Source of the DNA: Thermoleophilaceae bacterium
GTDB lineage: Bacteria > Actinomycetota > Thermoleophilia > Solirubrobacterales > Thermoleophilaceae
DNA length: 48,905 nucleotides
Reading direction: 5' to 3'
Assembly (NCBI GenBank): GCA_025928345.1
Contig: JAICJR010000003.1
Span: 1 to 48,905, forward strand
A program made the position numbers and the translations under genes. The notes beneath the pieces were generated by a model. That model did no database searches. It was not told the origin of the DNA and saw only the letters and a list, made by a program, of their open reading frames with translations. Below, one piece after another: positions 7,955 to 48,905 of the stretch; the stretch's first letter is position 1, and each line of letters begins with the position of its first letter.

Positions 7955-8281
7955 ATGACCCTCCGAGAGCTGTCTCCCGAGATCGCCGCCGAGCTCCTCG
8001 CCCGCGGCGACGCCCAGCTCGTGGACGTGCGCGAGCCGTACGAGCACGCCGCCGGGCGGATCGCCGGCGCGCGCCATGTCGAGCTTGGTGCGCTCACCGG
8101 CCAGGCCGAGACGATCGACCGTGAGACGCCGGTGGTGTTCTATTGCCGCGTGGGAGCGCGCTCCGCGATGGCGGCCGAGGCGTTCGCCGCCTCAGGCTGG
8201 GACGCCTACAACCTGTCCGGCGGCATCGTGTCCTGGGCGGCGTCCGGCCTGCCGATCGAGGGCGAGATCGCCGAGCACTAG
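7955..8281 (+). CDS. Single-domain rhodanese-like sulfurtransferase
   Basis: 108 aa. The N-terminus has LVDVREPYEHAAGRI (the CH2A-type signature) and the active-site loop is FYCRVGARSAMAAE, with the catalytic Cys followed by a 6-residue loop (CRVGARS), as in GlpE/PspE-type thiosulfate or persulfide sulfurtransferases. Likely cytosolic, carrying sulfane sulfur on the Cys. It converges with the ferritin-like gene, sharing CTAG at 8278-8281, and faces pfkB across a 24-nt spacer, implying an extremely short or absent leader. Confidence 0.92.
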   Translation: MTLRELSPEIAAELLARGDAQLVDVREPYEHAAGRIAGARHVELGALTGQAETIDRETPVVFYCRVGARSAMAAEAFAASGWDAYNLSGGIVSWAASGLPIEGEIAEH

Positions 8282-9225
8282 CTTCCGAGGCGCATCCGCC
8301 GCTCGGCCGCGCGAAGAATCGACTGCCGCTTCTTCCCCGCGCTCTCATACAGATTCACCACGGCCACGACCTCGTCGCTCGCGTCCGCCAGCCGCTGCGT
8401 GATCTCAGCTGCCCGCATGCGGTCATAGTCCTCCCACGGCTCATCGATCGCAATTTCAGCGCCGGCCTCGTCGGCCGGGCCGAACTCCGCAACGAGCTCC
8501 GGCTCCTCGGACACGTGCTCGGGCTCCGGCGGCTCCGGGGCCGGAGCTGGGGTCGGAGGTCGGAGGTCGGGGGTCGGAGGGGGAGGCTGGGGCGCCGGCG
8601 GCGGTGGAGCGCCGTTCGTGGCCTGTGGCCTTTGGCCTGTGGCCCTTGGCTTCTTCTCCGCTCTCCCGCCTCCGGCCTCCGGCCTCCGGCCGGCAAGCCG
8701 GTCGCTCACTTCCACCACCGCCTCGCGCAGATATTCGGCCATCCTCTCCTCATCCGCCCGAATCTCGCGGGCCAGGCTGGCTGTTTCCTCGTCGCCCTCG
8801 GCTTCGGCCAGACGCTCGATCGCGATGTAGGTGGCCACCTCGAGGGCTTCGCTTGCCGACTCGGCGCGCACGTTGCGGAGCACGCGGTCGGCGGCGGGGG
8901 ACTCGGCGCCGCGCAGGAGGGTGAGTGGCAGGCCGACCACGGACAGCATCACGCGAGTGGCGCCGCGCGCGATCCCGAGGCTGTAGCCCACGGGCGCCGA
9001 GATGAGCGAGAACGCCATGCGCAGCGGATCGGCGCCGTCCTGCTCGAGCTCCGCGATGCGCGCGGCGAGCCTGCGGCCGTGCTCGCGCGTCTCCTCGAGG
9101 TGCTCCTCGATCCGGGCCCGGTGCTCACCGGGCGGCGTGGCGGCGATGTGCGCCTGGAGCGTCTGCGTGAGGCCGGCTTCGATCGCGCGTGCCTCACGGA
9201 GGTACTGGACGAGCAGGTCGCTCAT
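8278..9225 (-). CDS. Ferritin-like (DUF892-type) protein with repeat-encoded Pro-rich linker
   Basis: 315 aa from the ATG at 9225, which has GGAAGGA six nt upstream; the ATG at 9231 would touch that site. Residues 1-150 are helical and resemble DUF892/YciE-F ferritin-like proteins (LLVQYLREARAIEAGL, EEHLEETREHGRRLAARI). Next comes a roughly 80-residue Pro/Ala linker, then an acidic C-terminal helical segment (RLADASDEVVAVVNLYESAGKK). The linker is encoded by three blocks of 7-bp tandem repeats (8551-8689), read on the opposite strand, so its sequence is probably a by-product of repeat insertion. Function of the family is unclear; stress roles are reported for YciF. Confidence 0.7.
   Translation of the reverse strand: MSDLLVQYLREARAIEAGLTQTLQAHIAATPPGEHRARIEEHLEETREHGRRLAARIAELEQDGADPLRMAFSLISAPVGYSLGIARGATRVMLSVVGLPLTLLRGAESPAADRVLRNVRAESASEALEVATYIAIERLAEAEGDEETASLAREIRADEERMAEYLREAVVEVSDRLAGRRPEAGGGRAEKKPRATGQRPQATNGAPPPPAPQPPPPTPDLRPPTPAPAPEPPEPEHVSEEPELVAEFGPADEAGAEIAIDEPWEDYDRMRAAEITQRLADASDEVVAVVNLYESAGKKRQSILRAAERRMRLGS
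8551..8689. repeat. Three 7-bp tandem repeat blocks forming facing arms, inside a CDS
   Basis: Plus strand: GGTCGGA-type heptamers x4 at 8551-8578, GGCCTGT-type heptamers x4 at 8620-8647, and CCTCCGG x3 at 8669-8689. The first and third blocks can pair along about 23 nt if G-U pairs are allowed, the middle block lying in the loop. The same two outer heptamers recur at 48807-48857. Confidence 0.85.
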
Positions 9226-9322
9226 CGGCATTCCTTCCGTGACGGGAATTCGTCGGTCATCCTGGCTTGCCCGGTGAAACAGCGGGTTTAACCTGGGATG
9301 ACCTGGCTACCCTTGTCGTTCA

Positions 9323-36143: not shown

Positions 36144-36157
36144 CTTGACCTGTCAAC
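36144..36157. promoter_or_regulatory. MarR operator in yceI promoter
   Basis: CTTGACctGTCAAC: 5-bp perfect arms (TTGAC/GTCAA) with a 2-nt spacer, overlapping the expected yceI transcription start. Same layout as the operator at 36740-36753. Confidence 0.65.
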
Positions 36158-36158
36158 T

Positions 36159-36187
36159 ACTTTAGCTGAGAAATGTTGTGGTGTCAA
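36159..36187 (-). promoter_or_regulatory. yceI promoter (TTGACA-N17-TAAAGT)
   Basis: On the minus strand TTGACA (36187-36182), a 17-nt spacer, and TAAAGT (36164-36159). The -35 is embedded in TAGTTGACA, a motif repeated at the operator downstream. Confidence 0.75.
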
Positions 36188-36204
36188 CTATTGAGGGATC
36201 AAGT

Positions 36205-36239
36205 GCCCAGTGCCCAGTGGCCAGTGGCCAGTGGCCAGT
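36205..36239. repeat. 7-bp tandem repeat, five copies
   Basis: GCCCAGT x2 followed by GGCCAGT x3, directly after the marR stop and before the yceI promoter. Contains TGGCCA palindromes. Confidence 0.85.
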
Positions 36240-36247
36240 GGCCTGAG

Positions 36248-36727
36248 CTATTCGACCGAGCAGGAGCCTTCGCCGGCTGCGCCGGGGAGGCGGCCCAACA
36301 GATCCGCGAGCTGACTGACTTCGTCTTCTGAGAAGTGAGACAGGAAGGCGGCGCGGATGCCGTCGATGTGGGTGCGGCCGGCCTCGCGGAGGCGCTGGTG
36401 GCCGGCGTCGGTGAGCTGGGCGTAGGAGACGCGCGCGTCGGACGGGCACGAGACCCGTTCGACGAGGTCGACGCGGCAGAGCCCGTCGACGAGACGGGTC
36501 ACGCCCGAGCGGGTGAGCATCGTGCGCTTCGCGAGCTCGGACATCGCCAGCCGGCGGTCCGGCTCCTGCGCGAGAAAGAGGAGCACCTCGTAGTCGCGCG
36601 AGGTGAGGCCGTGGCGTGCGACCAGGTCAGCGTCGAGCTCGCGTGTGATCGCGGCGTGACTCAGGAGGAAGCCCCGCCAGGCGGCGAGGTCCACTCCTTC
36701 GAGGCCTGTTGTCTGCTTCGTGCTCAC
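36248..36727 (-). CDS. MarR family regulator (autoregulated, probably controls yceI)
   Basis: 159 aa from GTG 36727. Winged helix: GLTSRDYEVLLFLAQEPDRRLAMSELAKRTM, LTRSGVTRLVDGLCRVDLVERV and SDARVSYAQLTDAGHQRL (wing with D-x-R). A TAAACT -10 sits only 6 nt before the GTG, so the message is probably leaderless, and the palindrome GTTGATgaATCAAC overlaps its upstream promoter region. A related palindrome is in the yceI promoter just downstream. The divergent TetR gene shares the same control region. Confidence 0.92.
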   Translation of the reverse strand: MSTKQTTGLEGVDLAAWRGFLLSHAAITRELDADLVARHGLTSRDYEVLLFLAQEPDRRLAMSELAKRTMLTRSGVTRLVDGLCRVDLVERVSCPSDARVSYAQLTDAGHQRLREAGRTHIDGIRAAFLSHFSEDEVSQLADLLGRLPGAAGEGSCSVE

Positions 36728-38786: not shown

Positions 38787-39218
38787 GTGTACCGGAACAT
38801 CCTGGTGGCGGTGGACGGCTCGAAGGAGTCGGACCTGGCGCTCGACGCCGCGATCGACCTCGCGCTCGGGACCAACGCGCGGCTCACGCTCCTGCACGTG
38901 GCCACCCGGGCGCCTGCGTCACTCGGCGTTTCGGCAGCCGGCGCAGCCGTGGCCGCCGAGCTGCTCGAGTACCACGACAAGGTCCTCCACGAGGCGATCG
39001 ACAAGGTGCCGAAGGAGCTGCCGATCACCACGCTCATGCTCGACGGCCATCCCGCCCAGGCGATCGTCAAAGCAGCACGCGAGTACGAGCACGACCTGAT
39101 CGTCATGGGCTCTCGCGGCCGCGGCCGGGCAAGCGCGGCGCTGCTGGGCAGCGTGTCGCATGAAGTCCTACACGAGGCCGACGTGCCTGTTCTGGTGGTC
39201 CACCAGAACAGGTCATAG
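38787..39218 (+). CDS. Universal stress protein (UspA family)
   Basis: 143 aa from GTG 38787 (the track adds a shadow frame). YRNILVAVDGSKESDLALDAAIDLA at the N-terminus and VMGSRGRGRASAALLGSVSHEVLHEADVPVLVVH at the C-terminus are typical, with the ATP-binding G-x-x-G-x-G/x(9)-G-S pattern present in the latter (GSRGRGRA...GSVS). The last codons lie in a perfect 13-bp hairpin, and the TAG stop is inside the first copies of a 7-bp repeat, so the native C-terminus may have been altered by the repeat. Confidence 0.93.
   Translation: MYRNILVAVDGSKESDLALDAAIDLALGTNARLTLLHVATRAPASLGVSAAGAAVAAELLEYHDKVLHEAIDKVPKELPITTLMLDGHPAQAIVKAAREYEHDLIVMGSRGRGRASAALLGSVSHEVLHEADVPVLVVHQNRS
39186..39212. repeat. 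Perfect 13-bp hairpin at the 3' end of usp
   Basis: CCTGTTCTGGTGG and CCACCAGAACAGG separated by one T. It is within the coding sequence and abuts the 7-bp repeat array. The one-base loop means the top of the stem must open. Confidence 0.75.
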
Positions 39219-39276
39219 GTCAGGGGTCATAGGTCATGGGGCTGTTCCTCTGACCTATGACCTATGACCTCTGACC
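39211..39276. repeat. 7-bp repeats in two facing 26-nt arms (hairpin)
   Basis: The left arm (39211-39236) has GGTCATA-type heptamers and the right arm (39251-39276) has TGACCTA-type heptamers. The arms match at 23 of 26 positions around a 14-nt loop. The usp stop codon lies in the left arm. Confidence 0.9.
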
Positions 39277-47844: not shown

Positions 47845-48804
47845 GTGAAGGTCCGACATCTGAGACGAGGCGCGGCAGGCGTGCTCGCTACAGCGCTCGC
47901 GCTGGCTGTTGCCGCCTGCGGTTCGAGCGGAGGCGGGAATACCAGCACGGGCGCGAGCACCGGCTCGACCCCAACCGCCAAGCCGGGCGCCGGCAAGCCT
48001 GCCGTGACGCTGGGCGCAAAGAACTTCACCGAGCAGTTCGTGCTCGGCCAGCTCTACAAGCAGGCGCTCGAGGCCAAGGGCTTCAAGGTCAACCTGAAGA
48101 ACAACATCGGCTCCACCGAGATCATCGACAAGGGCCTGACGAGCGGGAAGATCGACTTCTATCCCGAGTACATCGGGGTGGGGCTGACGGCCGTCGCTCA
48201 TGACGACAAGTCGTATCCGAGCGCCCAGGCCGCGTACAGCGCTCTGAAGGCGTTCAATGAGAAGCGCGGCTTCACGCTGCTCGACCAGACGCCGTTCACG
48301 GACGTCGACGCGATCGCGGTGAAGCCGGCGTTCGCCAAGCAGCACAACCTCAAGTCGGTGGCGGACCTGAAGAACGCGGGGCCGTTCAAGATCGGAGCGC
48401 CGCCGGAGTTCCGCACACGCTTCACGGGACTCGTCGGCATGAAGAAGGTCTACGGGATCACTCAGGCCACGCTCGTTCCGCTGACGATCGGTCTCCAGTA
48501 CAAGGCGCTCGACAGCGGCAAAGTGCAGGCGGCCGACGTGTTCACCACGGACGGTCAGCTGCAGAGCGGCAAGTACACGGTGCTAACGGACCCGAAGAAC
48601 ATCTTCGGCTACGAGCAGGTGGCGCCGATCGTGAACAAGAAGACGCTGACCAAGGAAGGCCCGGCGTTCGCTCAGACGATCAACGCGCTGAGCGCGAAGC
48701 TCACGACGAAGGCGATGCAGCAGATGAACGGGGCGGTGGATTTGGACAAGCAGTCGCCGGCGTCCGTTGCCAAGCAGTTCCTTCAGGCCAACGGGTTGGC
48801 GTAA
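47845..48804 (+). CDS. opuCC: Osmoprotectant-binding lipoprotein (OpuCC/OsmX type)
   Basis: 319 aa from GTG 47845 with AAAAGGAG 8 nt upstream; the track's 47773 start is inside the permease gene. The lipobox LALAVAACGSSGGG predicts lipid attachment at Cys, followed by a Ser/Thr/Gly linker. The OpuAC domain starts VTLGAKNFTEQFVLGQLYKQALEAKG, with NIGSTEIIDKGLTSGKIDFYPEYIG and VQAADVFTTDGQ typical of QAT-family binding proteins. Delivers glycine betaine, choline or carnitine to the permease. Ends 2 nt before a hairpin-forming repeat. Confidence 0.93.
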   Translation: MKVRHLRRGAAGVLATALALAVAACGSSGGGNTSTGASTGSTPTAKPGAGKPAVTLGAKNFTEQFVLGQLYKQALEAKGFKVNLKNNIGSTEIIDKGLTSGKIDFYPEYIGVGLTAVAHDDKSYPSAQAAYSALKAFNEKRGFTLLDQTPFTDVDAIAVKPAFAKQHNLKSVADLKNAGPFKIGAPPEFRTRFTGLVGMKKVYGITQATLVPLTIGLQYKALDSGKVQAADVFTTDGQLQSGKYTVLTDPKNIFGYEQVAPIVNKKTLTKEGPAFAQTINALSAKLTTKAMQQMNGAVDLDKQSPASVAKQFLQANGLA

Positions 48805-48805
48805 C

Positions 48806-48857
48806 GAGGTCGGAGGTCGGAGGTCGGAGTCTCCGGCCTCCCGCCTCCGGCCTCCTA
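48806..48857. repeat. 7-bp tandem repeats in two facing arms (hairpin), between convergent genes
   Basis: AGGTCGG x3 (48807-48827), then CCTCCGG-type heptamers (48830-48857). In RNA read from the plus strand, about 24 nt can pair with three G-U pairs and one mismatch. Same two heptamers as at 8551-8689. It follows opuCC and precedes a minus-strand C-terminus, so it may also act as a terminator. Confidence 0.85.
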
Positions 48858-48905
48858 CCTTGCCCTCGCCTTCACGCTGAAGCTCGACTTGGTGCCTGCT
48901 GAGTC
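48855..48905 (-). CDS. C-terminal end of a minus-strand gene (cut by window edge)
   Basis: Sixteen codons followed by TAG on the minus strand read DSAGTKSSFSVKARAR, which looks like the last beta-strand of an Ig-like or Big-type domain in a secreted protein, as at the end of the BNR gene at 3664. Too short for a firm call. Its stop codon lies inside the last copy of the 7-bp repeat. Confidence 0.35.
   Translation of the reverse strand, partial: DSAGTKSSFSVKARAR

Follow-up and report, generated by a model that had tools for sequence, protein, structure and literature searches.

Dispersed G-rich heptamer arrays behind stop codons and inside a ferritin-like gene of a Thermoleophilaceae bacterium

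Introduction

A gene for a ferritin-like protein in a Thermoleophilaceae bacterium carries three blocks of tandem heptamers in its middle, which raises the question of how such repeats come to lie in a coding gene and what maintains them there and elsewhere. The answer bears on why seven is a preferred length of bacterial repeats, how the arrays spread and what they do. Hundreds of short arrays of 7-base units occur in this bacterium and in the closest relative compared, often as facing pairs capable of forming hairpins. They are dispersed, have only the heptamer in common, abut stop codons, pair in facing orientation and vary at syntenic sites. Because arrays at syntenic sites can be present, absent or rewritten, and because some lie in frame within coding genes, mutation (slippage, conversion, strand switching) can be separated from selection for RNA structure.

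Results

Arrays in the window

The window, that is, the whole stretch of 48,905 nucleotides analysed, contains the following features.

8278-9231, minus strand: host gene for a DUF892/ferritin-like protein of 317 amino acids, in which the arrays encode a Pro-rich linker
8551-8580, plus strand: GGTCGGA, 4.3 copies, left arm, within the coding gene
8618-8650, plus strand: four heptamers of the GGCCTGT type, between the arms, without a facing partner
8663-8691, plus strand: CCTCCGG, four copies, right arm (reverse complement GGCCGGA)
36202-36243, plus strand: AGTGSCC, six copies, single arm, 4 bases behind the TAG stop of a MarR-family gene (36248-36727, minus strand)
39211-39240, plus strand: GGTCATA/GGTCAGG, left arm, providing the TAG stop of a universal stress protein gene (38787-39218, plus strand)
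39247-39276, plus strand: facing right arm of TATGACC units
48806-48829, plus strand: GGTCGGA, 3.4 copies, left arm, 1 base behind the TAA stop of an OpuAC gene ending at 48804
48831-48855, plus strand: facing right arm of CCTCCGG units

The three blocks that the original prediction had placed at 8551-8689 were all found, the last with four copies of CCTCCGG, as were the heptamer pair about 40 kb away, expected at 48807-48857 and located at 48806-48855, and the arrays expected at 36205 and 39211 (36202-36243 and 39211-39276). With at least 12 of 14 matches at lag 7 as the criterion, the window holds six period-7 arrays, against a mean of 0.67 and a maximum of 3 arrays over 60 Markov-1 trials of random sequence with the same dinucleotide make-up. 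The hairpin at 48802-48860 has a predicted RNA minimum free energy (MFE) of -44.5 kcal/mol (z -6.2). Rfam gave no match within the window.

Two local details may be added. The universal stress protein gene owes its stop (TCA TAG, 39211-39218) to the array, and this stop lies one codon beyond its position in the second, congeneric species. Beside the MarR-family gene, at 36152-36200, TGTCAACTA occurs twice and is conserved in the second species; these copies may serve the neighbouring gene as operator or promoter elements.

The insertion in the ferritin-like gene

The arrays do lie inside a gene and encode its Pro-rich linker, as had been proposed. The ferritin-like identity holds in so far as the Ferritin profile matches weakly, but must be corrected to DUF892, which is the best Pfam match of the protein. 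The outer blocks (8551-8691) are indeed able to fold on each other, with a calculated RNA MFE of -76 kcal/mol (z -3.3). In the second species both outer blocks are the same and the middle block has diverged, all at the same place. The two flanking domains are retained in homologues from other genera, where the intervening segment is not Pro-rich; those examined had no comparable heptamer array, and two GC-only period-7 stretches among them (L046 and L055) resemble codon noise. With the array in both congeneric species, absent from the homologues examined outside the genus, and no linker conserved in all orthologues, the alignments point to an insertion that is genus-specific among the genomes compared, and to a free linker, as predicted, which is rewritten across eleven aligned proteins. 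Coding sequence is a minority context, since arrays lie mostly directly behind stop codons.

Heptamer arrays across the genome

The proposed heptamer-period family with facing arms proved real genome-wide. GGTCGGAGGTCGGA, two units of GGTCGGA, has 38 copies in the 3.45-Mb assembly of the window and none in the reversed control. The refuting condition of the original prediction, arrays no more frequent than in shuffled sequence together with a linker conserved in all orthologues, is not borne out. In 378 kb of this assembly there were 19 strict period-7 arrays, against 0-1 at other periods, 14 excepted; as these stretches were partly picked for hits, densities should come from the second species, in which 1.78 Mb picked by contig number gave 19 strict arrays at period 7, compared with 12 at period 14 and 0-5 at the remaining periods; under the relaxed criterion the same 1.78 Mb gave 79 arrays. 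Period 7, with its double, is the sole excess at a lag that is no codon multiple, and lags 5, 8, 10, 11 and 13 show almost nothing. The most frequent 16-mers of the sampled genome are heptamer 16-mers.

At the relaxed threshold there are indeed a few GC-only hits that resemble codon noise (e.g., L070 1526 and L157 14801), and it could be supposed that the whole pattern arises from chance or codon periodicity in a genome of 69% GC. The reversed control (0 versus 38), the absence of a comparable excess at those other lags and the random-sequence maximum (3 versus 6 in the window) refute this, and leave such an artefact with a negligible probability. In the second species, one arm at L095:15159-15180 has GGGTCGCA, a variant of 8 bases, and behind stops lag 8 is slightly elevated in this species.

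The units are related and G-rich: GGTCGGA/GGCCGGA, GGTCGCA, GGTCATA/GGTCAGA, GGGCATA, GGGCGTA, GGGAGTA, GGGCACT/GGCCACT and GGTGACT. A run of three Gs is present in GGGCACT, GGGAGTA, GGGCATA and GGGCGTA and absent from GGTCGGA, GGTCATA, GGTCGCA and GGTGACT. The array flanks have no conserved core and no k-mers in common beyond the heptamers; CTGTTC, considered as a candidate core, occurs at 13 of 131 arrays and is not among the enriched flank words.

Placement behind stop codons

Gene positions were taken from our own codon-usage gene caller. Of 63 intergenic arrays, 33 have an edge no more than 10 nt from a stop codon, compared with 10.5% under random intergenic placement (p 2e-16), and 24 are no more than 5 nt away (5% expected); a start is as near as 10 nt in just 3 of the 63. 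Since a stop-bearing unit would itself end the reading frame that it invades, the count was repeated with units that are stop-free in all frames, and 22 of 47 such arrays were within 10 nt of a stop (p 3e-10) and one near a start. The stop codon often consists of the letters that open the first unit, as in TAG followed by GTCGGAGG, GTCGCAGG, TGCCCAGTG or GGGAGTAGG and TGA followed by GGTCGGAGG, and TAG is over-used at arrays (28/44 versus 614/1533). Among 39 skewed arrays, the coding strand is G-rich in 27 and C-rich in 12. Arrays lie between divergent genes in four cases versus 15 between convergent genes, and some are found inside tight operons (e.g., L116, L114 and L167). The placement null does not imitate arrays born in zero-length gene junctions, which would touch the stop for that reason alone, and this could account for part of the stop bias.

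Facing arms

An inverted partner (score at least 14) lies within 200 bp of 21 of 96 arrays, compared with about 0.1% of random regions, and a comparable direct partner within the same distance of one; about three quarters of all arrays lack an inverted partner in this range. Neighbouring pairs within 300 bp number 19, against 2.4 expected, and 15 of them face each other while four are direct. Facing pairs outside genes fold into hairpins with z between -5 and -11, and the L143 hairpin reaches -66.6 kcal/mol (z -11.4). Facing arms also occur inside coding genes (8551-8691 in the window, L074 and L075), so that a role at the 3' end of transcripts is not needed there. At L075:16427-16516, GGTCATA arms surround a GC-rich stem-loop that has TTTT behind it on the minus strand; what the second species (L137) conserves is this stem-loop and not the arms.

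Syntenic sites in a second species

The second species (G001) has about 86% nucleotide identity and is syntenic across the window. By our own classification of the alignments, with one further GC-only hit left out, 18 syntenic sites are comparable: six, including the ferritin-like gene, have the same unit in both species on at least one arm, four have different units, and eight have an array in one species only. An AGTGGCC array at 36199 corresponds to a GGTCGCA hairpin in the second species, and at 48804 the GGTCGGA arms of the window correspond to GGTCGCA arms, both having changed together. Units also differ within coding genes, GGTCGGA versus GGTCGCA at L081/L103 and GGYCGGA versus GGTGACT at L168/L199.

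The syntenic site of 39211-39276 has no heptamer array in the second species. The cleanest empty site is that of L167 versus L197, where a 53-bp insert occupies an ATGA/GTGA junction of operon genes with ATGA on both sides; a 21-bp gain between convergent stops separates L162 from L185. No consistent target duplication was found at the empty sites other than L167. The unit spectra differ as well (Fisher p 3e-4), in that two units of GGTCGCA occur at two loci in the species of the window versus about 18 in the second species, and two units of GGTCGGA at 22 versus about 15. Array-less syntenic sites can hold other sequence of about 130-210 bp (L168:6760-6894, L096:5308-5455, L137:13988-14197), bearing the motifs GCAGCAATAAAGG/CCTTATTGCTGC or CTGTTCCCAGAG(AACAG), which is possibly a second interspersed repeat family using the same addresses.

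Discussion

We give about even credence to the idea that G-rich heptameric tandem repeats of the Xanthomonas kind have expanded in this genus, the arrays being dispersed, self-homogenising and tolerated. Arrays might lengthen and shorten by replication slippage, and units might be copied within an array, between facing arms by hairpin-templated strand switching, and between loci by ectopic conversion, with the outcome that each genome would drift to its own unit spectrum. Arrays would survive where the sequence is free, mainly directly behind stops and in the disordered linkers of proteins, given that many units (GGTCGGA, GGTCGCA, GGGCACT) are stop-free and add a harmless period of seven residues; any effect of an RNA hairpin or quadruplex on the upstream gene would be secondary. 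We think that upkeep is by mutation more than by selection, a view that the arrays in coding genes and the exchange of units support. Mutational expansion is further supported by the recurrence of the same units genome-wide without a flanking core, by the species-specific spectra and by the empty sites, and related units in other families of the phylum fit a mutational bias. However, plain neutrality alone does not account for the stop proximity (24/63) or the G-richness of the coding strand (27/39), no conversion event was seen directly, and the scheme does not account for the first seeding of a new site. It would be tempting to go further and suggest concerted evolution of the arrays within one genome, units being copied among dozens of unlinked loci and between facing arms, so that one unit replaces another at fixed addresses behind stops and in coding linkers. 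We offer this only tentatively and rate it below an even chance; if true, sister species share their addresses but fill them with different heptamers.

Mutation-led upkeep has to be weighed against two other readings. The arrays might be RNA elements under selection at the 3' ends of transcripts, in which a facing-arm hairpin, or a two- or three-layer G-quadruplex formed by a single G-rich arm, ends transcription or protects the 3' end of the mRNA, the identity of the heptamer being free provided that the two arms match. The best arguments for such a role are the precise placement at stops, which is strong even for stop-free units (22/47), and the hairpin kept at 48804 although its unit changed; the great stability of extragenic facing pairs, the scarcity of arrays between divergent genes (4 versus 15 convergent) and the finding that, in Xanthomonas, transcript starts or stops are commoner at quadruplex-forming repeats than at control sites (PMC4692102) point the same way. 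Yet no T-run follows the window hairpins and a terminator scan placed no site at the window arrays, so that these are not intrinsic terminators of the hairpin and T-run type. Moreover, most arrays are without a facing partner, termination in the tight operons would silence the next gene, facing arms occur in the middle of coding genes too, and the Xanthomonas study found no regulatory role (PMC4692102). We consider a 3'-end role somewhat unlikely, and rank it second after mutation-led upkeep.

Alternatively, the arrays might be mobile palindromes, degenerate and non-autonomous, that a trans-acting enzyme places at stop/start junctions, like mycobacterial MIRUs or Rickettsia palindromic elements. 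Clean empty sites, the L167 insert with ATGA on both sides, in-frame presence within coding genes and facing arms that look like terminal inverted repeats would all suit this idea, but there is neither a conserved element core nor a fixed length, and different units occupy one site in different species, which transposition predicts only with repeated hits. No match to a RAYT-type Y1 transposase (TnpA_REP) was found in the 88%-complete assembly, with a profile that matched 5 of 14 control genomes, which argues against REP/RAYT elements; neither the conserved body nor the consistent target duplication of a MITE- or MIRU-like element was found, the ATGA-bounded insert being a single case. Lacking a core and a Y1 transposase, a transposon-like origin is placed third and seems improbable.

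Several genomes elsewhere in the phylum have more heptamer-pattern matches than their neighbours (G146, G432 of f34, G404, G167 of f6, G360, G172 and G318 of f38), although the degenerate pattern matched other heptamers in the reversed control too (G146, G404), so that these counts are only a rough index. Units of their own in other families include GGTAGCT, GGTGGCT, GGTGGAT and GGGAGTT. Because such families (G146, G432, G404, G360) show their own heptamer expansions, heptamer arrays have probably arisen repeatedly in the phylum.

Among described systems, mycobacterial MIRUs, as summarised in PMC12548453, insert at start codons with a 4-nt gene overlap, which recalls the ATGA junction at L167; they have a fixed repeat sequence and no heptamer structure, and here there is one such junction only. 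Rickettsia palindromic elements, as reviewed in PMC2229807, are likewise palindromes fused in frame into coding genes, but measure 105-146 bp with a sequence of their own, whereas only the tandem heptamer is common here. The TAACTGA direct repeats of marine Beggiatoaceae also form genome-wide heptamer arrays of few copies whose mechanism of spread is likewise unknown; they differ in lying upstream of starts, in not being G-rich, in being almost never inverted and in having a single unit (PMC4679880). The original prediction had likened the arrays to cyanobacterial STRR, which, going by the Calothrix repeats as cited in PMC4692102, are heptanucleotide tandem repeats too but belong to a different lineage; the likeness considered here is that of period.

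The closest described relatives are instead the GGGAATC repeats of Xanthomonas, which were reported with the GGGGA(C/T)T repeats of Nostoc (Rehm et al. 2015, PMC4692102) and resemble the present arrays in convergent pairing and stop proximity. Each Xanthomonas genome has about 180 dispersed arrays, with 70 closely spaced convergent pairs in Xcc and 75 in Xac; they lie near stops on the coding strand, are under-represented between divergent genes, and their role was "to be elucidated" at the end of that study (PMC4692102). Over-represented dispersed tandem heptamers with G-rich units, stop proximity with the G-rich strand coding (33/63 within 10 nt; 27:12), convergent pairs (15 facing versus 4 direct) and avoidance of divergent promoters are all shared, and on these grounds the arrays belong to the Xanthomonas kind. 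They differ in having at least eight related units rather than one dominant unit, in GGTCNNN units without the three-G run of GGGAATC, in stops that are often fused to the first unit, in in-frame linker arrays, and in units that differ at syntenic sites of congeneric species. What is new here relative to the Xanthomonas kind is the coexistence of many units and their replacement between species.
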